Source: Pelagibacteraceae bacterium AG-345-F21
GTDB taxonomy: Bacteria; Pseudomonadota; Alphaproteobacteria; Pelagibacterales; Pelagibacteraceae
Reading direction: 5' to 3'
DNA length: 36,635 bases
NCBI GenBank assembly: GCA_003281795.1
Contig: QCAW01000011.1
Coordinates: 1 to 36,635, forward strand
A program made the translations under genes and the position numbers. The notes below the pieces were generated by a model. It saw only the letters and a program-made list of their open reading frames with translations. It ran no database searches and was not told the origin of the DNA. Shown piece after piece: positions 2,264 to 17,059 of the stretch; positions within the stretch are counted from its first letter, which is position 1, and each line of letters opens with the position of its first letter.

Positions 2264-2667
2264 CAATTCAATTTAAATGCTTTCAATAAAGCTTCCATGG
2301 GCAATATGACACAATTAATTCGGTTCAAAGTTTTATTATTAAGCAAATTATTGAATTCCTTAAATCTAGTAGGCAAATATATTTTTTTATCTCTCTTAAT
2401 ATTTTTAAAATTGTCAAAATATTTCTTTAGATCTTTTATGGAAAAATTTTGTATCTTATTAGCAAGTAAACTTGCAGAGGCCTCACATAATATACATGAC
2501 TCCGTTTCATAACGCATTGACTTAATTTTAGCCTTACTAGCTATCAATTCAATTTTAATAAAATCACCGCAAATGTGATTTTTAGCTGATGATTTATGAG
2601 TATATTTTTTTTTTAAACCTTCAAATTTTGTATTAGAGGCTATTTTAATTATTTTTTTACTAATCAT
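2263..2667 (-). CDS. NifU/IscU-like iron-sulfur cluster scaffold (SufU-type)
   Basis: This 134-residue protein is an IscU-fold scaffold. Three cysteine-containing motifs are in order: CGDFIKIEL (usual xPxCGDxI), ESCILCEASASLLAN (usual GCAISxASASMM) and NCVILPMEALLKA (usual RxxCVLLPWEAL). The last motif ends the protein, as in the short SufU-like scaffolds common in alphaproteobacteria. Such proteins hold a transient Fe-S cluster or zinc and hand clusters to target proteins in the cytoplasm. It is shorter than canonical IscU. The gene overlaps the nhaA stop by 4 bases (ATGA) and its own TGA overlaps the next ATG, so the three genes are probably co-translated. The functional link with an antiporter and a peroxidase is not obvious. 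Confidence 0.82.
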   Translation of the reverse strand: MISKKIIKIASNTKFEGLKKKYTHKSSAKNHICGDFIKIELIASKAKIKSMRYETESCILCEASASLLANKIQNFSIKDLKKYFDNFKNIKRDKKIYLPTRFKEFNNLLNNKTLNRINCVILPMEALLKAFKLN

Positions 2668-3836
2668 TTTTTTGAAAAAATTAGTAATAGAAAATAACCA
2701 AAAACAGTTGAAAGCAAAGACCCTGTAAGAACACCAATTTTAACACCATCAATATAAGCCATATTATTAGCAAAAGCTAAATTTCCTACAAAAAGACTCA
2801 TAGTGAACCCAATACCAGTTAATATCGAAACAGCATAGAAAGTTGGCCATGTTGAGTTATTCGGTTTGTCTGCAAACTTTAATTTAACTGCAATATACGA
2901 AAGCACAAAAACACCTATTTGCTTTCCAAAAAACAAACCTAAGACAATTCCAAGAGGCACTGGGTTTAATAAAGTTTTAAAAGTTAACCCTTCTAATGAA
3001 ACTCCTGCATTTGCAAATGCAAAAAGTGGCATTATTCCAAAAGCTACATAGGGCGAAAGGCTATGCTCTAACTTAAGTAGCAATGATTGTTTATTATTTT
3101 TAGCGTTATGTGGAATAGTGAGTGCTAATAAAACTCCAGCTATAGTGGCATGTATTCCTGATTGGTGAGTAAAGTCCCACAAAAAAACTCCTACAATTAA
3201 ATAAGGTAAAAAATTCTTAATTTTAAATTTATTTAGACTTATTAATAGAATTATTGAAACAAACATTAAGATCAAATAATTTGTTTCTATATTACCAGAG
3301 TAAAAGAATGCTATAATTACGATTGCTCCTAAATCATCAATTATAGCCAGTGCTGTTAAAAAAACTTTAAGAGAAATGGGAACTCTTTTTCCCAAAAGAG
3401 ACAAAACACCTAAAGAAAAAGCAATGTCTGTAGCTGAAGGTATAGCCCATCCTCTTAATGTTGCAGAATCTGAAAAGTTTACAACAATATAGAAAAGAGC
3501 TGGTACAACCATTCCACCAACTGCTCCAATAATTGGCAACAATGCTTGTTTTGGATTAGATAGTTCTCCCTGTAGAAATTCTCTTTTAATTTCCAAAGAT
3601 ACAAAAAAGAAAAATATTGCCATTAAAACATCATTGATCCAATGAAGAACACTTAATTTTAATCCAAATTCTTTAGTACCGAGAATTATGTATTTTTCTA
3701 AAGTAGAAAAATATAATACACTAAAACTACCATTGCTAATTATTAGTGCAAGAATTGCCGCAAAAAGCAAAACCAAACCAGATGAAGCTTCTAATTTAAA
3801 AAAATATTTAAACGGTTTTGTAATGTGTTGGATCAT
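2664..3836 (-). CDS. nhaA: Na+/H+ antiporter NhaA
   Basis: This 390-residue inner-membrane protein has the length and about 12 hydrophobic segments of NhaA. It has diagnostic stretches: EASSGLVLLFAAILALIISN at the N-terminus, FFFVSLEIKREFLQGELSNP, ATDIAFSLGVLSLLG, the ion-binding double aspartate in LAIIDDLGAIVIIAFFYSG, and GIMPLFAFANAGV. NhaA exchanges sodium for protons and controls cytoplasmic pH and sodium, which suits a marine cell. It is the first gene of a leftward operon with the scaffold and peroxidase genes. Its ATG lies 74 bases from the divergently placed tRNA-Pro gene, so promoters for both directions must be squeezed into 3837-3910. Confidence 0.97.
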   Translation of the reverse strand: MIQHITKPFKYFFKLEASSGLVLLFAAILALIISNGSFSVLYFSTLEKYIILGTKEFGLKLSVLHWINDVLMAIFFFFVSLEIKREFLQGELSNPKQALLPIIGAVGGMVVPALFYIVVNFSDSATLRGWAIPSATDIAFSLGVLSLLGKRVPISLKVFLTALAIIDDLGAIVIIAFFYSGNIETNYLILMFVSIILLISLNKFKIKNFLPYLIVGVFLWDFTHQSGIHATIAGVLLALTIPHNAKNNKQSLLLKLEHSLSPYVAFGIMPLFAFANAGVSLEGLTFKTLLNPVPLGIVLGLFFGKQIGVFVLSYIAVKLKFADKPNNSTWPTFYAVSILTGIGFTMSLFVGNLAFANNMAYIDGVKIGVLTGSLLSTVFGYFLLLIFSKK

Positions 3837-3910: not shown

Positions 3911-3987
<77 letters not shown>

Positions 3988-3993
3988 ATCAAT

Positions 3994-6216
3994 ATGAGTA
4001 TAAATAAAGTAGTAGTTATAGGATCTGGAACAATGGGAAGCGGAATAGCTGCTCACTTATGTAATGCAGATATCTCTGTTGTTTTGTTAGATTTAAAAAC
4101 AGAAATTGCAGAAAAAGCAAAAGAAAGAATCTTAAAATCTAGACCTCCTTTGTTATTTGAAAAAGGAAAAATTAATAGCTTGAAGGTCGGGAACATCAAT
4201 GAAGATTTTGACAATGTTTCTGATGCTGACTGGATAATTGAGGCTGTTGTTGAACGAATAGACATAAAACATGCAATTTACAAAAAAATTTTTCATAAAA
4301 GAAAGAAAAACTCAATAGTTTCATCGAACACATCTACAATACCATTAAAAGTTTTATCAGAAAAATCATCCATTGAAGATAAAAAGGACTTTTGCATAAC
4401 ACATTTTTTTAATCCTGTAAGATATATGGGATTACTTGAAATAGTTAGAGATGAAATCAATGATCAGAATAAAATAAACTCTTTAAAGAATTTTTGTGAG
4501 GAAAAATTAGGCAAAGGTGTAATAGTTTGTGGTGACACGCCTGGTTTTTTAGGAAATAGAATTGGTGTTTACGCTATGCAAGTAGCTATGACTGAAGCTG
4601 TAAAAATGAATCTTTTAGTTGAAGAAGCTGATGCTGTATTTGGTAGACCTATGGGGATACCTAAAACAGGTGTTTTCGCTTTATATGATTTAATCGGCAT
4701 TGATTTAATGTCGGATGTTTTAAAAAGTTTTCAAAAAGAATTATCAACTGAAGATGAATTTCAAAAAGTTGTTTCTGGTTTACCAGTTATAAAAAAATTA
4801 ATTGAAACAGGATATACAGGCAGAAAAGGTAAAGGGGGGTTCTATAGAATAAATAAATTAGAAGATAAAAAAATTTTAGAAGCACTTGATTTAAATAAGA
4901 ATGAATATTTTCCTGTTAAAAAAATTGATTTAAAAATAGATAAAATAAATCTTTTAGAATTGATCAATAGAAATGATAAATATGGAAAATACGCATGGTC
5001 TGTGTTATCAAAAATTATTTTGTATTCATCATCTTTAGTGCCTTCTATTACAAAAGAGTATAACGATATAGATGAAGCTTTGAGATTAGGATTTAACTGG
5101 TTAATGGGCCCATTTGAAATGCTCGAATCAATAGGGTTAAAAACTTTCTTTTCAAAAATTGGAGATATTAATCATAATAAATTTTTAAAAAGTCTTAAAG
5201 AAAAAAATTTAGAAAATTTCTATGACCAACGACAAAAATATACAACTTTGCAAACTCTTGGTAAGATAAAAAAATCAGTTATTAAAGTAGATAAAAATGA
5301 CTCAGCAGAAATATATAGATTTAAAGATTTTAATATTGTTGAGTTTAATACTAAAGCAAATGCATTGGATTATAATTCAATGGACGCTCTTAAAAAAGCA
5401 ACAGATAAACCTCTTATTATAATAAATGAAAGCATGCAATTTTCAGCGGGCGTAAACCTTAACTATGTAATGGAATTTATTAATAATAAGGATTTGAAAT
5501 CTGTAGAAAAATTTATCAAATATTTTCAAGAAACTTGTAAACACTTAAAGTATTGCAAAAATCCAGTTATATCTGCTCCTTCTGGTTTAGCTTTAGGTGG
5601 TGGTGAGGAAGTAGTCCTGCAGAGTAATTATGTAGTTTCACATACTAATATTGTAATGGGTCTAGTAGAAACAATCGTTGGACTAGTGCCCGCTGGAGGT
5701 GGCTGCAAAGAATTACTATGGAGGTGGTCAAAAACTGATGATTCTAAATTAGATCCAGATTATGCATCGTTAAAAGTATTCGATATTATTGGTTATGCAA
5801 AAACTGCTACTTCTCCTCAAGAGGCAAAACCACTACTATTTTTAGATACTAACCATAAAGTAATAATTAATAGAAATGAATTATTACCTGCTGCAAGAAA
5901 ATTGCTTAAAAATAATGCAGATATATCTCCTTCAGAGGAATGTAAATTTAAATTATCTGGTAAAAATGCCAGAGAAAAAATGCACAAAATACTTGAAGCA
6001 CTATATAATGACAAAAAGATTCTAGAACACGGTATGGAAGTTGGTAAGGAATTAGCATATGTTTTAAGTGGTGGGGATACAGATTTAAGTAAAGATGTAA
6101 CAGAAGACCAAATGTATAAATTAGAATTGAATAGTTTTATGAATTTAATCGAAAATAAAAAAACTCAAGATAGAATTATTCATACATTAAAAACAGGAAA
6201 ACCATTGATTAATTAA
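3994..6216 (+). CDS. 3-hydroxyacyl-CoA dehydrogenase / enoyl-CoA hydratase fusion (FadJ-like, HADH first)
   Basis: This 740-residue bifunctional protein has the dehydrogenase domain first, the reverse of E. coli FadB. The NAD-binding motif GSGTMG is at residues 10-15. The catalytic His137 lies in HFFNP, with Glu149 twelve residues on, as in HADH enzymes, and SSNTST is at about 110-115. The C-terminal third is a crotonase domain with LALGGGEEV and [15 protein letters not shown]; Glu539 and Glu559 are 20 residues apart, matching the two catalytic glutamates of enoyl-CoA hydratases, so both activities look intact. It should hydrate an enoyl-CoA and oxidise the 3-hydroxyacyl-CoA. It heads the operon 6 bases after tRNA-Pro and abuts the dehydrogenase gene. 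In ordinary beta-oxidation a thiolase gene usually lies nearby; none is present here. Confidence 0.92.
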
Positions 6217-7977
6217 ATGACTACTTACAATGCTCCAGTTGAAGATATGATGTTTCTTTTTGACAATTTAAAAGATAATAAAAATTACAAAGAAATTGAT
6301 AAATTTAAAGAAATTAATTCTGATTTAGTAAAAGATATTTTGGATCAAGCGGCAAAAATTAATAAAGAAATTGTTCATCCTTTAGCAAAAATTGGAGATG
6401 ATAGTCCATGTGTATACGAAAATGGAATAGTTAGATCTCCACCAGGTTATAAAGAAGCATATAAAAAGTATATTACTGATGGATGGACCTCTTTATCTTG
6501 TGATCCTAAATATGGAGGTCAAGGGATGCCTAAAACTGTTAGTACTTTTTTTGAAGAAATGTTATCTTCAGCGAGTTTATCTTTCAAACTGTACAGTGAA
6601 TTAAGTATAGGCGCTTATAATTGTATCCTCCATCATGCTGATCAAAAGATTAAAGACAAATTTCTTCCTAAAATAGTAGAGGGTAAATGGAGTGGCACAA
6701 TGTGTTTGACAGAATCTCAATGTGGTACCGATTTAGGATTAATAAAAACAAAAGCAAATAAAAATTCAGATGGTTCATTTTCATTAACTGGACAAAAAAT
6801 ATTCATAACATCTGGTGATCATGATCTGACAGAAAATATTATACATTTAGTTTTGGCAAAAATTCCAGGGGCACCTCAAGGAACAAAAGGAATTAGCTTA
6901 TTTTTAGTTCCTAAATTTAATGTAAAGGAAAATGGCTCTATTGGGTCAAGAAATGGAGTTAGTACTTTATCTATTGAAACTAAAATGGGAATTAAGGGTT
7001 CACCTACTTGTGTTCTTAATTTTGATAATGCTAGAGGCTATCTTATTGGAAAAGAAAACAAAGGTTTAAATTCAATGTTTACAATGATGAACTTAGAAAG
7101 AATAATTGTTGGAATACAAGGGTTAGGTATTGCTGAAACTGCCTACCAAAATTCATTAACTTATTCTAAAGAAAGAAAGCAAGGTAAATCAAATGATAAT
7201 AAAAATAACGAAACTGATCTTATAATAAAGCATGCTGATATAAGAAGAAGTTTAATGAACATGAGATCAATAATTGAAGGTCAAAGATCTTTGGCTTTTT
7301 GGTTGTCTCAACAAGTAGATGTAAGTTTAAATCATTCTAATGAAAATATTCGAAATGAGGCAGATGAAATGGTCTCATTGATGACACCTGTAGTAAAATC
7401 TTTTTTCTCAGATATGGGAATGGAAATAACCAACGAAGCAATACAAATTTTTGGAGGATATGGCTACACAAGAGATCAAGGTATTGAACAGTTATATAGA
7501 GACAATAGAATTACTCCCATTTATGAGGGAACAAACTCTGTCCAAGCTATTGATTTAGTTTTTAGAAAAGTCCTTAGTAACCGAACATTAGATAAATTTG
7601 TATCTTTAGTTCAAAATGAAATACATAATTCTGAAGATAATTTAGAACTAAAAAGATTATCCAGTATACTAGAAAAAAAAATAATTATTATACAAAACTT
7701 TTCTAAATGGCTAGACGACAAATTAAAAAGTCAAAAAGACGATGTAAGTGCAGCTTGTAATGACTTTTTAAAAGTCCTTGGATATGTTTCTTTAGGTTTT
7801 TCTTGGCTTAAGATGACCAAAGTAAGTTATGCAAATTCTAGTAAAAATAAAGTTTTTTATGAGGAAAAAATCAATACAGCTAAATATTTTTTTGATAAAA
7901 TACTACCAAGAATAGATAGTCATTATTATTCAGCAATAGCAGGCAGTGAAAGCATGATGAAAGCTAAATTCAATTGA
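6217..7977 (+). CDS. Acyl-CoA dehydrogenase, large type (DmdC-like, candidate MMPA-CoA dehydrogenase)
   Basis: This 586-residue flavin-dependent dehydrogenase is of the long class with an extra C-terminal domain; ordinary short enzymes have about 380 residues. The N-terminus TYNAPVEDMMFLF is typical of this class, which includes DmdC. The FAD/substrate motif MCLTESQCGTDLG is at residues 162-174, and FGGYGYTRDQGIEQLYRDNR leads into IYEGTNSVQAIDL, where Glu437 is the expected catalytic base. It introduces the 2,3 double bond into an acyl-CoA; in DMSP catabolism this makes methylthioacryloyl-CoA from MMPA-CoA. The ATG directly follows the previous stop with no gap. Sequence alone does not separate DmdC from other long acyl-CoA dehydrogenases; the DMSP assignment rests on the DmdA-like gene downstream. 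Confidence 0.88.
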   Translation: MTTYNAPVEDMMFLFDNLKDNKNYKEIDKFKEINSDLVKDILDQAAKINKEIVHPLAKIGDDSPCVYENGIVRSPPGYKEAYKKYITDGWTSLSCDPKYGGQGMPKTVSTFFEEMLSSASLSFKLYSELSIGAYNCILHHADQKIKDKFLPKIVEGKWSGTMCLTESQCGTDLGLIKTKANKNSDGSFSLTGQKIFITSGDHDLTENIIHLVLAKIPGAPQGTKGISLFLVPKFNVKENGSIGSRNGVSTLSIETKMGIKGSPTCVLNFDNARGYLIGKENKGLNSMFTMMNLERIIVGIQGLGIAETAYQNSLTYSKERKQGKSNDNKNNETDLIIKHADIRRSLMNMRSIIEGQRSLAFWLSQQVDVSLNHSNENIRNEADEMVSLMTPVVKSFFSDMGMEITNEAIQIFGGYGYTRDQGIEQLYRDNRITPIYEGTNSVQAIDLVFRKVLSNRTLDKFVSLVQNEIHNSEDNLELKRLSSILEKKIIIIQNFSKWLDDKLKSQKDDVSAACNDFLKVLGYVSLGFSWLKMTKVSYANSSKNKVFYEEKINTAKYFFDKILPRIDSHYYSAIAGSESMMKAKFN

Positions 7978-7979
7978 AG

Positions 7980-9608
7980 ATGAGTATTTACGAAAAAAAT
8001 TTAGATAAAAATAATGCAAATTTTGTTCCTTTAACACCACTTACATTTTTAAAAAGAGCAAAAGATATTTACCCAAATTACGAAGCATTAATTTATGAGG
8101 ATCGTAAATATTCTTGGTTTGATGTTTATAAAAGATGTGTAAAATTTGCTAGTGCTCTTTCAAAAATTGGAATTAAAAAAGGTGATACCGTATCTTTTCT
8201 AGCCTACAATACACCTGAAATATTCGAAGCTCATTATTCTGTACCCATGTCGGGGGCTGTTTTAAATACCATTAATATTCGATTAGACGCGAAAACTATT
8301 TCATATATTTTAGAACACGCAGAAGCAAAAGTTTTAGTCGTGGATCGTCAATTACATATTGAAGTAAAGAAAGCTTTAAGCACCATTAAAAGAAAAATTA
8401 CTATTATCGACATTAATGATAAATTTGCAGATCAATCAAAATGTGAAAAAATTGGAGATAGTGAATACGAAGAATTTTTAAATACTGGCGATGAAAATTT
8501 TGAATGGAAAATGCCAGACGATGAATGGCAAGCTCTTTCTCTAAGTTATACCTCTGGAACAACTGGAAATCCGAAAGGAGTAGTTTACCACCATAGAGGA
8601 TCTTACTTAATGTCTACGGGCAGCGCAACAGCTTGGGATATGCCAAATAGACTTAATTTTTTAACAATTGTTCCAATGTTTCACTGCAATGGATGGGGGT
8701 ACCCTTGGACTGTACCGATGTTGATAGGTCGAACAATTTGTTTAAGAAATATTAATGTAAAAAAAATTTTTGAATTAATTGATAAATACAACGTAACTCA
8801 CTTTGGAGGAGCTCCAATAGTTTTAAATATGATTACCGGCGCCCCTGAAAAAGATAGAAAAAAATTAAAACAAAAAGTTTATGTTTTAACTGCTGGTGCG
8901 CCACCACCTAGTATAATTTTTAAGAAAATGGAAACGCTCGGTTTTGAAGTTATGCATGTGTATGGTTTGACCGAAACTTATGGGCACGTAACACAATGTG
9001 CCTGGAATGAAACTTGGAATGATTTAAATGAGGAAAAACAAAATGAAATTAAAGCTCGTCAAGGAGTACGCTATCCAAATACAGAAGGTATTGCAATTAT
9101 GGATCCTGAAACTATGAAAGAAGTCCCCAAGGACGGTAAAACTATCGGTGAAATTATGATCAGAGGCAATGTAGTTATGAAGGGGTACTTTAAAGATAAA
9201 GAGGCCACAGACAAAGCGATGAGGGATGGTTGGTTCCACTCAGGAGATTTAGCAGTAATGCATGAGGATGGCTACGTTAAAATTCAAGATCGTTCAAAAG
9301 ATATTATAATATCAGGAGGAGAAAATATATCATCTATCGAAATTGAAAACACTTTATCAAAACATCCGTCGGTGTCGATTGCTGCAGTTGTTGCCAAACC
9401 AGACAAAAAATGGGGAGAAGTGCCTTGTGCTTTTATTGAAATAGTCAAAGATAAGCCTGTAACAGAAAATGAATTAATAATGTTTTGTAAGGAAACCTTA
9501 GCGAATTTTAAAGTTCCAAAAAAAGTTCAATTCTGCGATCTTCCAAAAACATCAACGGGAAAAATTCAAAAATTTGAGTTAAGAAAAAAAGCTAAAAATT
9601 TAAATTAA
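7980..9608 (+). CDS. AMP-forming acyl-CoA synthetase (DmdB-like candidate)
   Basis: This 542-residue adenylate-forming CoA ligase has the P-loop-like motif LSYTSGTTGNPKGVVYHH, VYGLTETYG, the aspartate motif WFHSGDLAVMHEDGYVKIQDR, the hinge KDIIISGGENISS and the C-terminal catalytic lysine in PKTSTGKIQKFELR. It activates a carboxylic acid with ATP and CoA. The N-terminal part, with NFVPLTPLTFLKRA and AGAVLNT-like spacing, resembles a subfamily that acts on short or medium chain acids; in this context it could make MMPA-CoA. I use ATG 7980; the in-frame TTG 7974 overlapping the previous stop is less likely. The start is separated from the preceding stop by two bases. Confidence 0.9.
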   Translation: MSIYEKNLDKNNANFVPLTPLTFLKRAKDIYPNYEALIYEDRKYSWFDVYKRCVKFASALSKIGIKKGDTVSFLAYNTPEIFEAHYSVPMSGAVLNTINIRLDAKTISYILEHAEAKVLVVDRQLHIEVKKALSTIKRKITIIDINDKFADQSKCEKIGDSEYEEFLNTGDENFEWKMPDDEWQALSLSYTSGTTGNPKGVVYHHRGSYLMSTGSATAWDMPNRLNFLTIVPMFHCNGWGYPWTVPMLIGRTICLRNINVKKIFELIDKYNVTHFGGAPIVLNMITGAPEKDRKKLKQKVYVLTAGAPPPSIIFKKMETLGFEVMHVYGLTETYGHVTQCAWNETWNDLNEEKQNEIKARQGVRYPNTEGIAIMDPETMKEVPKDGKTIGEIMIRGNVVMKGYFKDKEATDKAMRDGWFHSGDLAVMHEDGYVKIQDRSKDIIISGGENISSIEIENTLSKHPSVSIAAVVAKPDKKWGEVPCAFIEIVKDKPVTENELIMFCKETLANFKVPKKVQFCDLPKTSTGKIQKFELRKKAKNLN

Positions 9609-9612
9609 ATAT

Positions 9613-10062
9613 ATGGGTAAAATATCTATAGATTTGTTATGGAAAATTGGTGATGGAAAAATGGCGCCCGGAAGTTATTCAAATGAACACCAGATTACTT
9701 TCACGCCTAATATAAAAATTATTGGTGACTCCGCCCCAGACTGGAAAGGAAACGAACTAAATAGCAATCCTGAACAAACATTAGCTGCTTCATTAAGCAG
9801 TTGTCATATGATGACTTTTTTAGCTTTAGCAGCAAAAATGAATTGGCCAGTAGTAAGCTATAAAGACTACGCAATTGCAACCCTAGGAAAAAATTCTAAA
9901 GGTCAAATGTCAGTTATTAAAATAGAATTAAATCCAAAAGTTACTTTTTTAAATAAATTTAGTGTTAATTCAGAAGATATGAAAAAAGTTCAGGACAGAG
10001 CTCATAGATATTGTTTTATAGCGAATTCTTTATCAGAAGAAGTAAAAGTTTTAATTAATTAA
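9613..10062 (+). CDS. OsmC/Ohr family protein
   Basis: This 149-residue OsmC-fold protein has both conserved cysteines: one in ASLSSCHMMTFLALA, the helix that opens the second half, and one in RAHRYCFIANSL. OsmC and Ohr proteins use this pair to reduce organic hydroperoxides; some relatives act on persulfides or other small thiol compounds. It lies 4 bases after the CoA ligase gene and 5 before the crotonase gene, so it is part of the operon. Its place next to a possible DMSP demethylation route, which releases methanethiol, suggests handling of reactive sulfur or peroxide products, but that is inference. The basic GDGKMAPGSYSNEH start is typical of cytoplasmic members; no signal peptide is seen. 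Confidence 0.88.
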   Translation: MGKISIDLLWKIGDGKMAPGSYSNEHQITFTPNIKIIGDSAPDWKGNELNSNPEQTLAASLSSCHMMTFLALAAKMNWPVVSYKDYAIATLGKNSKGQMSVIKIELNPKVTFLNKFSVNSEDMKKVQDRAHRYCFIANSLSEEVKVLIN

Positions 10063-10067
10063 AAACC

Positions 10068-10877
10068 ATGAACACCAAATTAAATAACGTAATTTTAAAA
10101 ACTTCACTAAACGAAGATGGAATTATGAAACTTACTCTCAATTCCCCAGCCAATCATAATGCATTATCTGATGAAATGATGTCTAACATTCAATCAGTCT
10201 TAGATAATTCAATCAATGAAAAAAAAATAAGAGTAATAATAATTTCAGCAGAAGGTCCTACATTTTCAGCTGGTCATGATCTTAAAGAGCTAACACTCAA
10301 TCGTAAAAATTCTGATAATGGAAGAAACTATTTTAAAGAAACAATGGCTAAATGTTCTAAATTAATGCAAACAATAGTAAACAATCCAAAACCTGTAATT
10401 GCTGAAGTCTCCGGAATAGCTACTGCAGCAGGATGTCAATTAGTTGCTAGTTGTGATTTAGCTTATGCAAGTAAATCTGCTAAATTTGCAACTCCAGGGG
10501 TAAACATTGGTCTCTTTTGTTCAACTCCGATGGTAGCCGTATCAAGAAATATATCCAATAAACATTCAATGGAGATGCTTTTAAGTGGTGAGCTTATCTC
10601 TGCAGAAAAAGCAGAAAAAATTGGATTGATTAATAAAGCTGTAGAAAATAATTTATTAGAGAATTATACTTTAAATATAGCTCATAAAATATCTAAGAAA
10701 TCAGCAATAACATTAAAAATAGGCAAAGAGGCTTTTTATAAACAAATTGATATGACTTTGTCAGAAGCTTATGATTATGCCTCAAACGTTATGGTTGAAA
10801 ACATGTTGAAACTCGATGCTCAAGAGGGCATTGGCGCTTTTATTGATAAAAGAAAACCAAAATGGCAAGATAAGTAA
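10068..10877 (+). CDS. Enoyl-CoA hydratase/isomerase family protein, ECHDC3-like, catalytic glutamates absent
   Basis: This 269-residue crotonase-fold protein has the FSAGHDLKEL oxyanion/CoA region and ATAAGCQLVASCDLAYAS followed by FATPGVNIGLFCSTP. These two stretches match the ECHDC3 branch of the family. At the positions of the two catalytic glutamates of enoyl-CoA hydratase it has Gln124 (GCQL) and Gly144 (TPGV), exactly 20 residues apart. It should therefore not be a standard hydratase, nor a canonical DmdD, which uses a glutamate pair. The oxyanion hole looks kept, so it may act as a hydrolase, isomerase or CoA-binding partner. It lies 5 bases after the OsmC gene. A crotonase domain with intact glutamates is present in the fusion protein at the head of the operon. 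Confidence 0.88.
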   Translation: MNTKLNNVILKTSLNEDGIMKLTLNSPANHNALSDEMMSNIQSVLDNSINEKKIRVIIISAEGPTFSAGHDLKELTLNRKNSDNGRNYFKETMAKCSKLMQTIVNNPKPVIAEVSGIATAAGCQLVASCDLAYASKSAKFATPGVNIGLFCSTPMVAVSRNISNKHSMEMLLSGELISAEKAEKIGLINKAVENNLLENYTLNIAHKISKKSAITLKIGKEAFYKQIDMTLSEAYDYASNVMVENMLKLDAQEGIGAFIDKRKPKWQDK

Positions 10878-10904
10878 TCTTTAATTTCAAAAAAAGGAAT
10901 ATAA

Positions 10905-11681
10905 TTGGATTTTTCAATTAATAACAATAAAGTTTTTTCAATGGACACCGGTGAAGACTTTGACAGTTCAAAAGAAACAATAATACTTTTACATGGAAGT
11001 GGTCAATCTCATGTTGTTTGGTCTCTGACTGCACAATATTTATCTGATCAAAATTATAATGTATTCTCAATTGATTTACCTGGGCATGGAAATTCGGAAG
11101 GTGAAAGTCTAAAATCGATTGAGGACATGGCTGAATGGTTAAATAAAATAGTAATAAAACTTAATATCAAAGATCTCAATTTGATAGGCCACTCGCAGGG
11201 TTGTTTAATTGCACTAGAGTATGCAAATATGTTTCCCTCAAATCTAAAAAAATTGATTTTCATTGCCGGATCCTATGCAATACCAGTTAATAAAAGTTTG
11301 ATCGAATTAGCACTGTCTGGGAATATGGACTCTCTCAATTTAATGATGAAATGGGGCTATGGAAATTCAAAACAATTTATAGGAGGAAATCCTCTACAAA
11401 AAATACTTAATTCCCCCAGAGAGGTGAGAGACGTTTTGGCTATAGATTTAATTGCTTGTAATAATTATAAAAATGGAGAACTAGCTGCAAAAAACATTAA
11501 ATGTCCCACATTTTTTATTTTTGGAGAATTAGATAAAATGATAAAACTTGAAACAGGAAAAAAATTTGCTGAATTTATAAATAATTCAAAAATTCATATT
11601 ATTAAAAATTGTGGACATATGATAATTCTTGAAAAAGCTTTTGAAATGAGAGAAAAAATTGTAAATTTTTTAAAACAATGA
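10905..11681 (+). CDS. Alpha/beta hydrolase
   Basis: This 258-residue alpha/beta hydrolase has a full catalytic triad. The nucleophile Ser97 is in the elbow LIGHSQGC, Asp210 is in FGELDKM and His238 in NCGHMIIL. The oxyanion segment LLHGSGQSHVVW is at about residues 28-39, and IDLPGHGNSEG follows strand 4. It could be a thioesterase or esterase for a CoA or small ester intermediate of the operon; the substrate cannot be read. The start is TTG 10905, supported by an AAAGGA ribosome-binding site 7-10 bases upstream and by the N-terminus needed for the first strand. The 27-base gap before it is the largest inside the catabolic part of the operon. Its TGA overlaps the next ATG (ATGA). Confidence 0.88.
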   Translation: MDFSINNNKVFSMDTGEDFDSSKETIILLHGSGQSHVVWSLTAQYLSDQNYNVFSIDLPGHGNSEGESLKSIEDMAEWLNKIVIKLNIKDLNLIGHSQGCLIALEYANMFPSNLKKLIFIAGSYAIPVNKSLIELALSGNMDSLNLMMKWGYGNSKQFIGGNPLQKILNSPREVRDVLAIDLIACNNYKNGELAAKNIKCPTFFIFGELDKMIKLETGKKFAEFINNSKIHIIKNCGHMIILEKAFEMREKIVNFLKQ

Positions 11682-12787
11682 AAAAAATTATCATATCTAA
11701 GTCTAGAAGATTGAGAAGCACACCTTTTACTTCAAGAATAGAGGAGCAGGGAGTAAAAAGTTACACCGTTTATAATCACATGTTATTACCTACAACTTTT
11801 TCAACTCCAGAAGATGAATATAATCATTTAAAAAAATATGTTCAGATTTGGGATGTTTCAGTCCAAAGAGAAATTGAAATTTCTGGAAAAGACTCTTCAA
11901 AATTAATCCAATTAATGACTTGTAGAGATTTATCAAAAGCACAAAAAGGCGGATGTTATTACGCTCCGTTAGTTGATGGGGATGGTAAAATGATTAATGA
12001 TCCATTAATTTACAAATTAGAAGAAGATAAATGGAGAGTTTGCATAGCTGATTCTGATGTCATGTTATTTGCAAAGGGAATATCATCAGCAAAGAATTTA
12101 AGTGTTAACATATTTGAGGCAAATGTTGATACATTAGCAGTACAAGGTCCAAAATCTCTCGAGATAATGAAAAAAGTATTTGGTGAACAAATTAAAGATT
12201 TGAAATTTTTCAAATTTGATTTTTTTAAATTTGACAATAAAAAATATTTAATTTCAAGGTCTGGATACTCAAAACAAGGAGGTTACGAAATTCATATTGA
12301 AAACAAGGATGCTGGTCTCAAGCTTTATGATTATTTTTTTGAAATAGGAAACGATTTCAATTTAAAACCAGGCACACCTAATCATCCTGAACGAATTGAG
12401 GGAGGTTTATTATCGTATGGAAACGATATGGATATTGGGGATAATCCATATGAATGCGGATTTGATCAGTATGTCAATTTAGAATCAGATATAACGTTTT
12501 TAGGAAAAGAAAGTTTAAAAAAAATAAAATCAGAAGGAATTAAAAGAAAACTTATGGGTGTTAAAATAAACATAAAGTCTATTAATCTGATTAATGAAAT
12601 ACCTATTTTTAGTACATCAAAAAAAAAAATCGGTGAATTACGATCAGCTGCACTTTCTCCAAAGTTTGAAAAAATTGTTGGTATTGCAATGATAAATAAA
12701 GAATTTTGCAAACCTTTTCAAAAATTTGAAATAAAAATAAATAATAATTTAATTGAAGGTGAAATCTGTAATTTACCAATCTTGTAA
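11678..12787 (+). CDS. dmdA: DmdA-family demethylase (DMSP demethylase or close relative)
   Basis: This 369-residue GcvT-fold protein resembles DMSP demethylase more than glycine-cleavage T protein. It has the DmdA-type N-terminus SRRLRSTPFTSRIEEQGV then YTVYNHMLLP, the segment YVQIWDVSVQREIEISG, LMTCRDLSKAQKGGCYY, LAVQGPKSLEIM, ISRSGYSKQGGYEIHIEN and PERIEGGLLSYGNDM. DmdA moves a methyl group from DMSP to tetrahydrofolate and leaves MMPA in the cytoplasm. The length equals that I recall for SAR11 DmdA, but several positions differ (for example CGFDQYVNLESD near the end of the substrate region), so it may be a divergent clade or act on another methylated compound. It overlaps the hydrolase gene by 4 bases and is followed 2 bases later by the NDUFS4-like gene. 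Confidence 0.78.
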   Translation: MKKIIISKSRRLRSTPFTSRIEEQGVKSYTVYNHMLLPTTFSTPEDEYNHLKKYVQIWDVSVQREIEISGKDSSKLIQLMTCRDLSKAQKGGCYYAPLVDGDGKMINDPLIYKLEEDKWRVCIADSDVMLFAKGISSAKNLSVNIFEANVDTLAVQGPKSLEIMKKVFGEQIKDLKFFKFDFFKFDNKKYLISRSGYSKQGGYEIHIENKDAGLKLYDYFFEIGNDFNLKPGTPNHPERIEGGLLSYGNDMDIGDNPYECGFDQYVNLESDITFLGKESLKKIKSEGIKRKLMGVKINIKSINLINEIPIFSTSKKKIGELRSAALSPKFEKIVGIAMINKEFCKPFQKFEIKINNNLIEGEICNLPIL

Positions 12788-12789
12788 TT

Positions 12790-13074
12790 ATGAAAAAAGC
12801 TAGAATTTATATACCTTCTAAAACTGCCATGCAGTCAGGTAGAGCGAAACAAAAAAAATGGGTTTTAGAATTTTTAACTAAAGACCCAAAAATCAATCCG
12901 CTGATGGGATGGGAGTCTTCAACGGATACCATGGAAGAAGTTATATTAAAGTTTTCTACTAAAGAAAAAGCAATTGAGTACGCAAAAGCGAATAATATTT
13001 CATATAAAGTTATTGAGCCAAAAACAAAAGAATTTGTTATTAAATCATATGCTGACAATTTTCTTAAAAATTAA
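12790..13074 (+). CDS. NDUFS4-like NADH dehydrogenase accessory subunit (ETC complex I conserved region)
   Basis: This 94-residue protein matches the alphaproteobacterial homologue of the mitochondrial 18-kDa (AQDQ, NDUFS4) complex I subunit. It begins ARIYIPSKTAMQSGRAKQK, then WVLEFLTKDPKINPLMGWESSTDTM, KFSTKEKAIEYAKAN and ends with a basic KSYADNFLKN. NDUFS4 binds the peripheral arm of complex I near the NADH-binding module and stabilises it. Its position 2 bases after a demethylase gene and 2 before a transporter gene makes it part of the same transcript. The link may be a need for respiratory NADH oxidation during catabolism, or just streamlined packing. The whole domain is present and no truncation is seen. 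Confidence 0.9.
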   Translation: MKKARIYIPSKTAMQSGRAKQKKWVLEFLTKDPKINPLMGWESSTDTMEEVILKFSTKEKAIEYAKANNISYKVIEPKTKEFVIKSYADNFLKN

Positions 13075-13076
13075 TC

Positions 13077-14081
13077 ATGTGGCGTAGTTTTTTTACTGAT
13101 AAAAAATGGTTGCTTTGGTCTTGGGGAGGTTTCTTCTTTATAATTTTGTCCCTGTTAGCTCAAACATATATAGATGTTAAAATTAACGAGTGGTACAAAG
13201 GTTTTTATGATTTATTACAAGAGGCACCTAAAAGAGATTTAGCCGAATTCTATGAGGGGATTGCTTTATTTATGAAATTGGCAATACCTTATGTAATTAT
13301 TTACACTATAACCAATTATTTCACTAGAATTTGGGCTTTTAGATGGAGAGAAGCTATGACTTTTTCTTATATGCCTTATTGGAGGGCAGTAGACGCACAA
13401 GTTGAAGGCGCTTCACAAAGAATTCAAGAAGACTGCATGAATTTTGCTAAGATTGTTGAAAGCTTAGGCTTACAAGTGGTTAGAGCCATTATGCTATTAA
13501 TTGCTTTCTTACCAATACTCTGGGGTTTATCTTCAAACGTTGTTATTCCTTTTTTTAAAGATATTTCAGGTTCACTAGTTTGGGTTTCATTAACTGCGAG
13601 TTTAGGAGGTCTTATTATAAGTTGGATAGTAGGTATAAAATTACCGGGCTTAGAATATAATAATCAAAAAGTTGAAGCAGCATTCAGAAAAGAACTTGTT
13701 TACGGTGAGGATGATAGAAAAAACTATGCACAAGCTCCAACAGTGTTGCAATTATTTACTGGGATTAAATTTAATTACCACAGATTATTTTTACATTATG
13801 GTTACTTCGATTTATGGATAATTATGTATAATCAAACTATGATAATTGTACCTTATCTTCTTATGGGTCCAGGCTTGTTTACAGGGGCAATGACGTTAGG
13901 TGTATTAATACAAACTTCTAGTGCTTTTAGAGAAGTTCAAAGTAGTTTTTCATTGTTTCTTCAGAACTGGACCAGAATTACTGAGCTTAGATCTATTTAT
14001 AAACGTTTAATGGAATTTGAAACTGCCATAAATTTTAAAAATAAGTTGAGAAAACCAAAAAAATCTGATGTAAGAGCTTAA
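13077..14081 (+). CDS. SbmA/BacA-like transporter
   Basis: This 334-residue membrane protein matches the SbmA/BacA family by WSWGGFFFIILSLLAQTYIDVKINEWY near the N-terminus, FEG-type segments such as RIWAFRWREAMTFSYMPYWR and EGASQRIQEDCMNFAKIVES, IKLPGLEYNNQKVEAAFRKELVYGEDD and IQTSSAFREVQSSFSLFLQNW. E. coli SbmA and rhizobial BacA are proton-driven inner-membrane importers of peptides, antibiotics and truncated cobalamin-like compounds. The visible protein is shorter than E. coli SbmA (about 400 residues), mainly at the C-terminus. It has no ATPase domain. It starts 2 bases after the NDUFS4-like stop and its own stop shares a base with the next ATG. The substrate is unknown. Confidence 0.82.
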   Translation: MWRSFFTDKKWLLWSWGGFFFIILSLLAQTYIDVKINEWYKGFYDLLQEAPKRDLAEFYEGIALFMKLAIPYVIIYTITNYFTRIWAFRWREAMTFSYMPYWRAVDAQVEGASQRIQEDCMNFAKIVESLGLQVVRAIMLLIAFLPILWGLSSNVVIPFFKDISGSLVWVSLTASLGGLIISWIVGIKLPGLEYNNQKVEAAFRKELVYGEDDRKNYAQAPTVLQLFTGIKFNYHRLFLHYGYFDLWIIMYNQTMIIVPYLLMGPGLFTGAMTLGVLIQTSSAFREVQSSFSLFLQNWTRITELRSIYKRLMEFETAINFKNKLRKPKKSDVRA

Positions 14082-14980
14082 TGGAGCTCTATATAAAGTT
14101 ATTTGATGTTATTTTTCCCGTTTTTTTTGTTATTGGAGTTGGTTACTACTTAGGAGTAAAAGATCCAAACTTTGATACTAAATTTATAACCAACTTTGCT
14201 GGAAATATTGGAACTCCAGCTATGATTTTTTATACAATAACAACAACCGGAGTTACTCTAAATATATTTATTGAGTATTTTATATACGCTTTAATTATAA
14301 TTGGAGGTTTTTCAATTATAGGTTTGTTTTTTTTGTTTATATTGAAAAAAGATGTAATCAGTGAATTACCACCTTTAATTTTACCAAATACCGGCAACAT
14401 GGGTATTCCAATTTGTCTTTTTGCTTATGGTACAGCGGGGTTAGGGGTAGCTTCAGCTATAGCATCAGTGATAATTTTATTACACTTCACTGTGGGCGTG
14501 TTATTAGCAAAAAAAAGTTTTTCACTAAAAATATTAGTTAGTAATGTACCCATATATGGAATTATAGCTTCTGTAATTTTTCTTTATTTTGAATGGGAAG
14601 TTCCTGGCTTCATAGAAAACACAACCTTTTTGTTAACTTATACAACAATTTTTTTAGTTTTAATGTCTCTAGGAATAGCACTATCTAGATTTCAAGTTAT
14701 TTCGTGGTCTCATGCATCAATATTAGGTGGCGTTAGGGTGGTAATAGGACCTTTAATTGGTTTAAGCTTAATAAAATATTTAGATCTAGATGGATTTGCC
14801 GCTGGGGTTTTGTTGATACAATCCTCAATGCCGAGCGCAGTTTTAACTTATTTAGTTGGTTCTATGTATTCAGAGAAGAAAGTAGTAGATAGCGTTGCTA
14901 GTGTAATTGTAACTTCAACAGTGATGTCTATAATAACAATTCCATTAGTTGTTTTTTATAGTCTAAAATATTTTCAATAA
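14081..14980 (+). CDS. AEC family transporter (auxin efflux carrier type)
   Basis: This 299-residue membrane protein has about ten hydrophobic segments and the AEC signature pattern: an N-terminal VIFPVFFVIGVGYYLG, then the central NTGNMGIPICLFAYG where the asparagine-glycine-proline break is typical, and a C-terminal LLIQSSMPSAVLTYLVGSMY. AEC carriers move organic acids or similar small metabolites; the substrate here is not known. The gene overlaps the SbmA-like stop by one base (TAATG), so the two are probably coupled. It is the last gene of the rightward operon. The 410-base gene-free stretch follows it, and I see no clear hairpin-plus-T terminator at its end. Confidence 0.88.
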   Translation: MELYIKLFDVIFPVFFVIGVGYYLGVKDPNFDTKFITNFAGNIGTPAMIFYTITTTGVTLNIFIEYFIYALIIIGGFSIIGLFFLFILKKDVISELPPLILPNTGNMGIPICLFAYGTAGLGVASAIASVIILLHFTVGVLLAKKSFSLKILVSNVPIYGIIASVIFLYFEWEVPGFIENTTFLLTYTTIFLVLMSLGIALSRFQVISWSHASILGGVRVVIGPLIGLSLIKYLDLDGFAAGVLLIQSSMPSAVLTYLVGSMYSEKKVVDSVASVIVTSTVMSIITIPLVVFYSLKYFQ

Positions 14981-16144: not shown

Positions 16145-17059
16145 ATGAACGATCTAACTTCAGAAATTAAAAAACTAGAAATTGAAACTTTAGATAATTT
16201 AAAAATGTCTAAAGCTAAAAATACTGTACGTGCCTATAAATCTGATTTTAACGATTTTGCATTATTTTGTAATAAACATGGAATGGAAAGCTTGCCAACA
16301 AACCCCAAAATTTTATCTCTTTATTTTACCCATCTTTCAAAAAAATCAAGGTATAGCACTCTTAAAAGACGATTAGCCTCGATTAAGGTAATGCATAAAT
16401 ATAAGGGTCATTATCTGGATACAAAACATCCTATTATAGTCGAAAACCTCTTAGGGATAAAAAGACAGATAGGTATTTATCAAAAAGCTAAAAAACCATT
16501 ATTATTCAATGAGATAAAACAAATAATTAAACAAATTGATGATTTTAAAGGCAATGGATTTAAAAAGTTAAGAGATAAAGCTCTAATTCTAGTAGGTTTT
16601 GCAGGAGGTTTCAGAAGATCAGAATTAGTAGCTATCTTAAAGGATGATGTTGAATTTGTTAATGAGGGGGTCAAAATATTCGTTAAAAAATCAAAATCTG
16701 ATCAATCTGGTGAAGGAATGGTTAAAGCTATACCCTCTTTTAAATTTAAAGAATATTGCCCAGTAGAAAGCTTAAGGATTTGGATGTATGAAAATAGAAA
16801 TGATCTAGTTTTTCCTATTTCAGACAAAAATGTAGCTTTAATTATTAAGAAATATACACAAAAAGCAGGGTTAGATCATAACAAGTATTCTGGTCATAGT
16901 TTGAGATCAGGATTTGCAACCTCTACAGCTGAGTCTGGAGCAAGTGAAAGAAATATTATGGCTATGACGGGACATAAATCAGTTGATATGGTTCGAAGAT
17001 ATATAAAAGAAGCAGACTTATTCAAAAATAATGCATTAAATAAAATTACTGACCAATAG
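16145..17059 (+). CDS. Tyrosine recombinase / integrase
   Basis: This 304-residue phage-integrase-family protein has an N-terminal SAM-like core-binding domain (residues 20-110, SKAKNTVRAYKSDFNDFALF) and a C-terminal catalytic domain. The six expected residues can be placed: Arg157 in GGFRRSEL, a lysine in the KKSKSDQSG hairpin near 184, His251 and Arg254 in GHSLRSGFA, His277 in MTGHKSVDMV and the nucleophile Tyr286 in RRYIKEA. It should cut and rejoin DNA at a short inverted core site. It is distinct from XerC/D in context and lacks an integron-type insertion that I can see. The stop TAG abuts the convergent glycosyltransferase stop with zero spacing. The inverted repeat directly upstream is a candidate core site or operator. 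Confidence 0.92.
   Translation: MNDLTSEIKKLEIETLDNLKMSKAKNTVRAYKSDFNDFALFCNKHGMESLPTNPKILSLYFTHLSKKSRYSTLKRRLASIKVMHKYKGHYLDTKHPIIVENLLGIKRQIGIYQKAKKPLLFNEIKQIIKQIDDFKGNGFKKLRDKALILVGFAGGFRRSELVAILKDDVEFVNEGVKIFVKKSKSDQSGEGMVKAIPSFKFKEYCPVESLRIWMYENRNDLVFPISDKNVALIIKKYTQKAGLDHNKYSGHSLRSGFATSTAESGASERNIMAMTGHKSVDMVRRYIKEADLFKNNALNKITDQ

Follow-up and report, generated by a model that had tools for sequence, protein, structure and literature searches.

Which enzyme releases the sulphur gas methanethiol when SAR11 bacteria, which are abundant in the ocean, demethylate the algal compound dimethylsulfoniopropionate (DMSP) is the question raised by a gene series in a 36,635-base stretch of DNA (contig QCAW01000011.1, positions 1 to 36,635, referred to as the window) from Pelagibacteraceae bacterium AG-345-F21, whose genome is 975 kb and 85% complete. 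In the available excerpts of PMC5069961, Pelagibacter and Roseobacter are named as primary DMSP consumers, DmdD is given as absent in P. ubique, and methanethiol formation is described as demonstrated, with its gene unidentified. An excerpt of PMC8547437 reports no dmdD in SAR116, as in SAR11, which suggests a non-orthologous replacement, and the step is assigned to dmdD or acuH in most SAR116 subclades in the part of PMC12262181 that was available. Within the terms searched, no open-licence paper was found that ties SAR11 and DmdD to a 3-hydroxyacyl-CoA dehydrogenase (HADH), the domain that is fused to a crotonase in the first gene of the series (FUS).

The window contains eight plus-strand open reading frames (ORFs) at 3994-13074, which are separated by 0, -4, 4, 5, 27, -4 and 2 bases in the ORF calling. 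The Pfam families are, in order, 3HCDH + ECH (FUS), Acyl-CoA_dh (ACAD), AMP-binding (LIG), OsmC, ECH (CROT), Abhydrolase (ABH), GCV_T (DmdA) and NDUS4 (NDUFS4). A sequence-only reading of the window had described eight adjacent co-directional genes of these families, none of them more than 27 bases from the next, and both the ORF coordinates and the Pfam matches bear this out. The most informative of the eight genes is FUS, to which that reading, though listing it, assigned no separate step. We give a little better than even chances to the reading that the first seven genes form a DMSP-demethylation block in which the crotonase domain of FUS takes the step of DmdD, as a methylthioacryloyl-CoA (MTA-CoA) hydratase.

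In this pathway, as predicted from the gene families, DmdA would demethylate DMSP, with tetrahydrofolate as the methyl acceptor, and yield methylmercaptopropionate (MMPA), LIG would convert MMPA to MMPA-CoA, and ACAD would oxidise MMPA-CoA to MTA-CoA. Hydration of MTA-CoA by the crotonase domain of FUS would then give an unstable hemithioacetal, from which methanethiol and malonate-semialdehyde-CoA would be released, so that no thiolase would be required. What HADH, ABH, OsmC and CROT contribute is conjectural: ABH might hydrolyse malonate-semialdehyde-CoA, and the HADH domain might serve a parallel acrylate branch from acryloyl-CoA via 3-hydroxypropionyl-CoA to malonate-semialdehyde-CoA, at which both DMSP routes would meet. 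Among the 80 stretches L065-L144, 62 match a CoA-acylating methylmalonate-semialdehyde dehydrogenase (TIGR01722; the L083 copy scores 711 vs 448.5 bits); this enzyme would fit the malonate-semialdehyde product, yet it is also a general enzyme.

Glu539 and Glu559 in the crotonase half of FUS are kept in 43/43 aligned sequences, and His137 and Glu149 are kept in the HADH half. Being a fusion and not a stand-alone crotonase, FUS is no DmdD itself, though it may work like DmdD. A PF00378 scan found only FUS and CROT in the genome of the window and FUS with CROT or a CROT-like protein alone in six DmdA-bearing genomes of genus g1 (G027, G102, G110, G117, G128 and G195). In G026, G063 and G078 (completeness 99-100%), only FUS and a CROT-like protein were found; one further crotonase is present in each of G003, G017 and G035. 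An AlphaFold model of FUS (9 sequences) was too poor (pLDDT 51.5) and was left unused.

In g1, FUS was found in 30 of the 34 genomes with DmdA and in 2 of the 87 without it. In three of the four DmdA-bearing genomes without FUS (G141, G267 and G316), a contig edge cuts the block, and the fourth (G265), which lay outside the fetched loci, has a partial DmdA match; the two FUS matches without DmdA lie at a contig end (G155) and in a fragment from an assembly that is 7% contaminated (G319). Across the family (197 genomes), FUS is present in 101/110 genomes with DmdA vs 12/87 without, where the threshold for DmdA presence (1e-100) was chosen after the values were known and can be passed by a second DmdA type, as in G178, which is counted as DmdA-bearing and has this type only. 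FUS is found in 47/50 genomes of g4 (Pelagibacter), or 46/49 without G178, although it is unlinked to dmdA there, with the dmd genes out of reach in 15/15 fetched FUS stretches. FUS lies within the dmd locus in the loci read in g3, g6, g8, g10, g13 and g14; where flanks were seen, they look by eye like leuB and asd. Among 31 genomes of the five genera in which no DmdA was found, there are two FUS matches, a 60-residue fragment in G011 and an operon in G054.

A maximum-likelihood tree divides 43 FUS proteins into groups of 15 and 28 with a support of 100; of the 14 signature columns that cleanly split the two groups, 9 fall in the crotonase half. The smaller group contains 14 proteins from thiolase clusters and that of G454, which has no thiolase there; the larger group (clade B) contains the SAR11 proteins entered together with those of G054, G375, G505 and G556. 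A DmdA-family protein above the cut-off is encoded elsewhere in the genome in 3/3 extra-family clade-B genomes (G375, G505 and G556) vs 2/17 others (Fisher 0.009, from a small sample and with no phylogenetic correction). Two of the 20 other alphaproteobacterial (class-level) FUS loci, L261 and L262, were missing from the tree due to the ORF filter and are counted among these 17. A broader proposal, which we regard as doubtful, is that FUS may be the founder of a thiolase-free family of FadB-type fusions, which would stand in for DmdD in SAR11 and in two or more other lineages of Alphaproteobacteria. Members of this family would release methanethiol from MTA-CoA, hydrate acryloyl-CoA and oxidise 3-hydroxypropionyl-CoA with the HADH domain, and ABH, where present, would hydrolyse the shared malonate-semialdehyde-CoA, so that the demethylation and cleavage routes would be joined.

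Several observations weigh against FUS as the MTA-CoA hydratase. In g4, FUS adjoins ABC-transporter genes (by eye) and not dmdA, and the g1 co-occurrences of the block genes are not independent, the genes being one block. Nine DmdA-bearing genomes of the family have no FUS match (G001, G049, G068, G069, G082, G141, G142, G164 and G188), including genomes with a completeness of 99% (G069), 95% (G001 and G164) and 94% (G188). An intact-looking HADH domain, which is unneeded for hydration of MTA-CoA, is kept in FUS, and the PF00378 scan would miss hydratases of other folds. G556 has only the second DmdA type among its DmdA-family proteins placed in the tree (59% identical to a g4 second-type protein and 46% to PDB 3tfh). 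In the 68 further named Pelagibacteraceae loci (L077-L144), all four core genes (ACAD, LIG, ABH and DmdA) are present in 31, ACAD, LIG and DmdA without ABH in 36, and only ABH and DmdA in 1; the absence of ABH from 36/68 loci speaks against an essential role of ABH. Because G556 has the second DmdA type and more than half of these 68 loci have no ABH, we set the odds slightly lower both for the seven-gene block with FUS at the hydration step and for the broader proposal.

The alternative that survives best is that FUS, ACAD and LIG serve general beta-oxidation of short-chain fatty acids and also accept MMPA; FUS would be an ordinary enoyl-CoA hydratase/3-hydroxyacyl-CoA dehydrogenase with its thiolase encoded elsewhere, and another enzyme would free methanethiol. 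We consider this unlikely on balance. It gains from the end-to-end match of FUS to Staphylococcus FadB (NF052272; 503 bits, below the cut-off of 999) and from G054 (76% complete), which has a FUS-ACAD-LIG-ABH operon with 40-61% identity and no DmdA found. ACAD is also slightly closer to 8png ('probable acyl-CoA dehydrogenase', 528 bits) than to 6ijc (503 bits; about equal), the MMPA-CoA dehydrogenase in an excerpt of PMC11890623, and DmdB and DmdC are described as promiscuous in the available part of PMC5395565. A thiolase occurs somewhere in 30/34 genomes searched, with or without DmdA, and the argument that FUS-bearing genomes have no thiolase was dropped for that reason; in G063, a Pelagibacter genome, a FadA-type thiolase even adjoins the unlinked FUS. 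However, that is the only thiolase in the clade-B FUS stretches scanned, and none lies inside the seven-gene block of the window, whereas 16/20 class-level loci have one, in the thiolase-FUS-ACAD layout of a beta-oxidation operon. The DmdA-less genera have a thiolase in 6/7 tested genomes, yet 29/31 of their genomes have no FUS.

Neighbours of FUS outside the family also argue against this alternative. The operons of G505 (FUS-LIG-MetY-ABH) and G556 (MetY-ABH-FUS) each contain a MetY gene. Beta-oxidation offers no role for a MetY next to FUS and ABH, an arrangement seen in these two lineages. The two MetY proteins score above the cut-off of the O-acetylhomoserine aminocarboxypropyltransferase family NF006004 (645.6 and 652.6 vs 636), and the ABH proteins of both loci have the triad motifs and further invariant residues in common with the ABH of the window. 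MetY makes methionine from methanethiol in P. ubique, according to an excerpt of PMC5069961.

A second alternative, which we judge improbable, is that a protein of another fold or a non-enzymatic hydration performs the methanethiol step, with FUS, CROT and ABH belonging to DMSP-linked metabolism of acrylate or other C3 compounds. Because AcuH-type hydratases take both acryloyl-CoA and MTA-CoA (PMC5395565, in part), being associated with DMSP genes is not enough to tell one substrate from the other, which also counts against our preferred assignment. MetY beside FUS and ABH, in contrast, points to methanethiol over acrylate. We know of no protein of another fold for the methanethiol step, and no search for other hydratase folds was made.

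The weakest alternative, that CROT is an MTA-CoA hydratase of the AcuH/DmdD type, as the sequence-only reading supposed, could appeal to the place of CROT in the block, its tracking of DmdA in g1 (32/34 vs 0/87 genomes), CROT-like proteins elsewhere in the genomes of other SAR11 genera and the PRK08139 family, named enoyl-CoA hydratase (386 vs 313 bits), but it is very improbable, since Gln and Gly replace both catalytic glutamates in 9/9 CROT and 10/10 CROT-like proteins, and CROT is missing in the block of G161 as well as in the dmd loci that were read in g3, g6, g8, g10, g13 and g14. The alignment was referenced to SAR11 crotonases that retain the Glu pair (L229, L230 and L241), and CROT was rejected as a canonical hydratase. 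DmdD retains the glutamates of rat enoyl-CoA hydratase, as stated in the available part of PMC5395565.

The remaining steps rest on a core that is already published for Pelagibacter: an excerpt of PMC3160333 gives dmdA, the alpha/beta hydrolase mhpC, fadD and mmgC for DMSP in Candidatus Pelagibacter ubique, so that SAR11 was already known to carry a dmdABC cluster. In G026, ACAD, LIG, ABH and DmdA are adjacent. The claim of the sequence-only reading that the ligase and the dehydrogenase are DMSP enzymes holds insofar as both are counterparts of the genes beside dmdA in G026 (76% and 67% identical, respectively). It does not extend to family membership of the ligase, which is outside the MMPA-CoA ligase equivalog (NF005426/PRK07008; 347 vs a cut-off of 822 bits) and has PRK08162 as its best NCBIfam match (853 vs 677 bits). 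The ligase of the Pelagibacter dmd cluster has reportedly been assayed earlier. The predicted catalytic base of the 586-residue dehydrogenase, Glu437, is indeed the Glu of a YEGT motif. The same reading required that the ligase and the dehydrogenase should not group with catabolic enzymes of genomes without dmdA; for the dehydrogenase this nearly holds among the 197 family genomes (E up to 1e-60), with G054 the one genome of a DmdA-less genus that has it. In the loci read in g3 and g8, a methylenetetrahydrofolate-reductase-like gene lies between ACAD and LIG (L192:12049-12945 and L193:12341-13237). It scores below the NCBIfam cut-off (184.5 vs 453) and could oxidise methyl-tetrahydrofolate from DmdA.

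The DmdA assignment of the sequence-only reading is supported by similarity. The DmdA of the window exceeds the NF009133 cut-off (503 vs 410 bits), matches PDB 3tfh over its full length (507 bits, 59% identity) and is on the same side of a small tree; the DmdA of G026 is identical to 3tfh (Pelagibacter ubique) at 368/368 residues. The window protein is a DmdA by family and a probable DMSP demethylase. The 80 named relatives of this DmdA among the matches listed carry the labels Pelagibacteraceae, Pelagibacterales or Candidatus Pelagibacter, which places the window in SAR11. A second DmdA-like type, seen in G014, G035, G109, G170, G178, G505 and G556, also scores above the NF009133 cut-off, at about 518-535 bits for the SAR11 proteins; the NF009133 model does not separate the two types. 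The second type (for example L291:2297-3460 in G109) is 47% identical to the DmdA of the window, forms its own group in the tree, directly precedes a thiolase in G014, G035, G109 and G170, and may be another DMSP demethylase. Outside the family, G505 has a DmdA that is 68% identical to 3tfh and well within the Pelagibacter type, plus one copy of the second type, and the DmdA of G375 (55% identical to 3tfh) groups with the Pelagibacter type at weak support (59). The DmdA-family protein of G554 was left out of this tree.

The genomic site shows which genes belong together. The unit is a seven-gene block, FUS-ACAD-LIG-OsmC-CROT-ABH-DmdA (3994-12787), of which genomes mostly have either all or nothing. 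NDUFS4 was found in 84 of the 121 g1 genomes, comprising all 34 with DmdA and 50 of the 87 others; 37 genomes have neither. For comparison with empty sites, 20 of the 50 dmdA-less, NDUFS4-bearing genomes were used, and all 20 loci have nhaA, tRNA-Pro, NDUFS4, SbmA and the permease, with 2-9 bases between tRNA-Pro and NDUFS4. The seven genes sit between tRNA-Pro and NDUFS4 in the dmdA-bearing g1 genomes. NDUFS4 (Pfam NDUS4, 117.8 vs 31.9 bits), directly behind the same tRNA-Pro in dmdA-less genomes, is a resident of the site and was rejected as a pathway member, and the eight-gene unit of the sequence-only reading thereby loses its last gene. Its right edge is also arbitrary, because a SbmA/BacA-like transporter and an auxin-efflux-type permease continue it on the same strand at +2 and -1 bases.

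The block counts in g1 rest on L165-L184 and L204; L065-L076 duplicate genomes of fetched G regions. Among 20 dmdA-bearing g1 genomes, 12 have the tRNA through DmdA and beyond on a single contig, and 8 are interrupted by contig ends. The seven genes are in order in 11/12 uninterrupted sites, the other being G161, which has neither OsmC nor CROT. Irregularities among the 11 are 2.7 kb between tRNA-Pro and FUS in G102, an inverted right flank in G150, a broken CROT in G110 and a broken DmdA in G227; G331, one of the 8 interrupted genomes, has no OsmC between LIG and CROT. The same order at the same site was found in 4/4 fetched DmdA-bearing loci of a second genus, g2. Since the order recurs in other g1 genomes and in g2, it is not a chance juxtaposition. 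In trees of flanking genes (39 loci), presence and absence of the block need 3-4 changes vs a mean of about 13 under shuffled labels, and the block has therefore been inherited with few losses or gains. No evidence was found that the tRNA holds a mobile island equipped with an integrase; an integrase-family gene at 16145-17059 is also present in most dmdA-less loci.

In the window, tRNA-Pro ends 6 bases ahead of the FUS start codon, and in 24/25 dmd-bearing loci, some from the same genome, a start codon lies 3-7 bases past the CCA end. This leaves too little space for a conventional ribosome-binding site, and transcription of the block may start at the promoter of the tRNA and give a near-leaderless message. 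Spacers in SAR11 are generally short, and the small distance may therefore be ordinary. A promoter scan of the window gave 71 matches vs about 60 expected by chance and was uninformative, and a search of the window for RNA regulators found two tRNAs and nothing else. Additional ORFs occur at the site in G102 (two on the opposite strand between tRNA-Pro and FUS, L171:1369-4023) and G161 (two between nhaA and tRNA-Pro, L181:3219-4594), and the site therefore accepts other inserts as well. Broken gene copies comprise CROT in two pieces in G110 and DmdA with an internal stop in G227 (L174 and L182), as well as FUS with stops in G344 (C1) and G174 (C3). The SbmA-like neighbours fall into two classes by identity to the window (about 67-75% and 87-95%) that do not track the dmd block, which suggests recombination at this site. 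The features are listed in Table 1.

Table 1. Features of the proposed DMSP-demethylation locus and of related loci. Positions refer to the window unless a locus is given.
Feature	Position	Strand	Remark
NhaA antiporter	2664..3836	-	resident left flank
tRNA-Pro (TGG)	3911..3987	+	CCA encoded; anchor of the site
FUS, N-terminal 3-hydroxyacyl-CoA dehydrogenase and C-terminal crotonase	3994..6216	+	FadB-type, thiolase-free clade; candidate methylthioacryloyl-CoA hydratase
ACAD, 586-aa acyl-CoA dehydrogenase	6217..7977	+	DmdC-like; Glu437
LIG, AMP-forming acyl-CoA ligase	7974..9608	+	DmdB-like, from position and similarity to the Pelagibacter dmd-cluster ligase
OsmC-like protein	9613..10062	+	seen as a block member only in g1 and g2
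CROT, ECHDC3/PRK08139-type crotonase	10068..10877	+	catalytic glutamates are Gln and Gly; not a canonical hydratase
ABH, alpha/beta hydrolase	10905..11681	+	Ser-Asp-His triad motifs; conjectured thioesterase
DmdA, probable DMSP demethylase	11678..12787	+	NF009133 score and tree
NDUFS4-like complex I accessory protein	12790..13074	+	resident flank, outside the block
SbmA/BacA-like transporter	13077..14081	+	resident flank
Auxin-efflux-type permease	14081..14980	+	resident flank
MetY genes	L254:12015-13325, L273:5745-7043		amid FUS and ABH, outside the family

The analysis provides a concrete candidate, FUS, for the missing methanethiol-releasing enzyme of SAR11. The P. ubique-type FUS candidate (740 aa) lies on the minus strand at G026 C1:1268373-1270592, with Glu539/Glu559 (window numbering) as the expected catalytic pair, and CROT is a built-in negative control, which makes the methanethiol question directly testable. 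Whether a genome has the block at this tRNA is a clean marker of the ability to demethylate DMSP within the genus, provided that NDUFS4 is not counted.

The locus resembles several known systems and departs from each of them. As in the dmd cluster of Candidatus Pelagibacter ubique, DmdA, an alpha/beta hydrolase, a ligase and a dehydrogenase occur together, in the same order in G026. In contrast to the P. ubique-type cluster, which is flanked (by eye) by leuB and asd/sdh and has FUS elsewhere, the block of the window includes FUS, OsmC and CROT and is located at tRNA-Pro/NDUFS4. The proposed chemistry via MTA-CoA is the same as that of the DmdABCD/AcuH pathway of Ruegeria pomeroyi (PMC5395565, in part), but no stand-alone crotonase with the glutamate pair was found here, and a FadB-type fusion is present instead. 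Compared with the alphaproteobacterial thiolase-FUS-ACAD clusters of the FadA-FadB-FadE type, FUS and ACAD are adjacent and homologous to the FadB- and FadE-type proteins, whereas the block has no thiolase and its FUS belongs to a separate clade that is marked by the signature columns. Like Staphylococcus FadB, FUS carries the HADH domain first and the crotonase domain second and matches that family over its entire length, although its score is only about half of the family cut-off.

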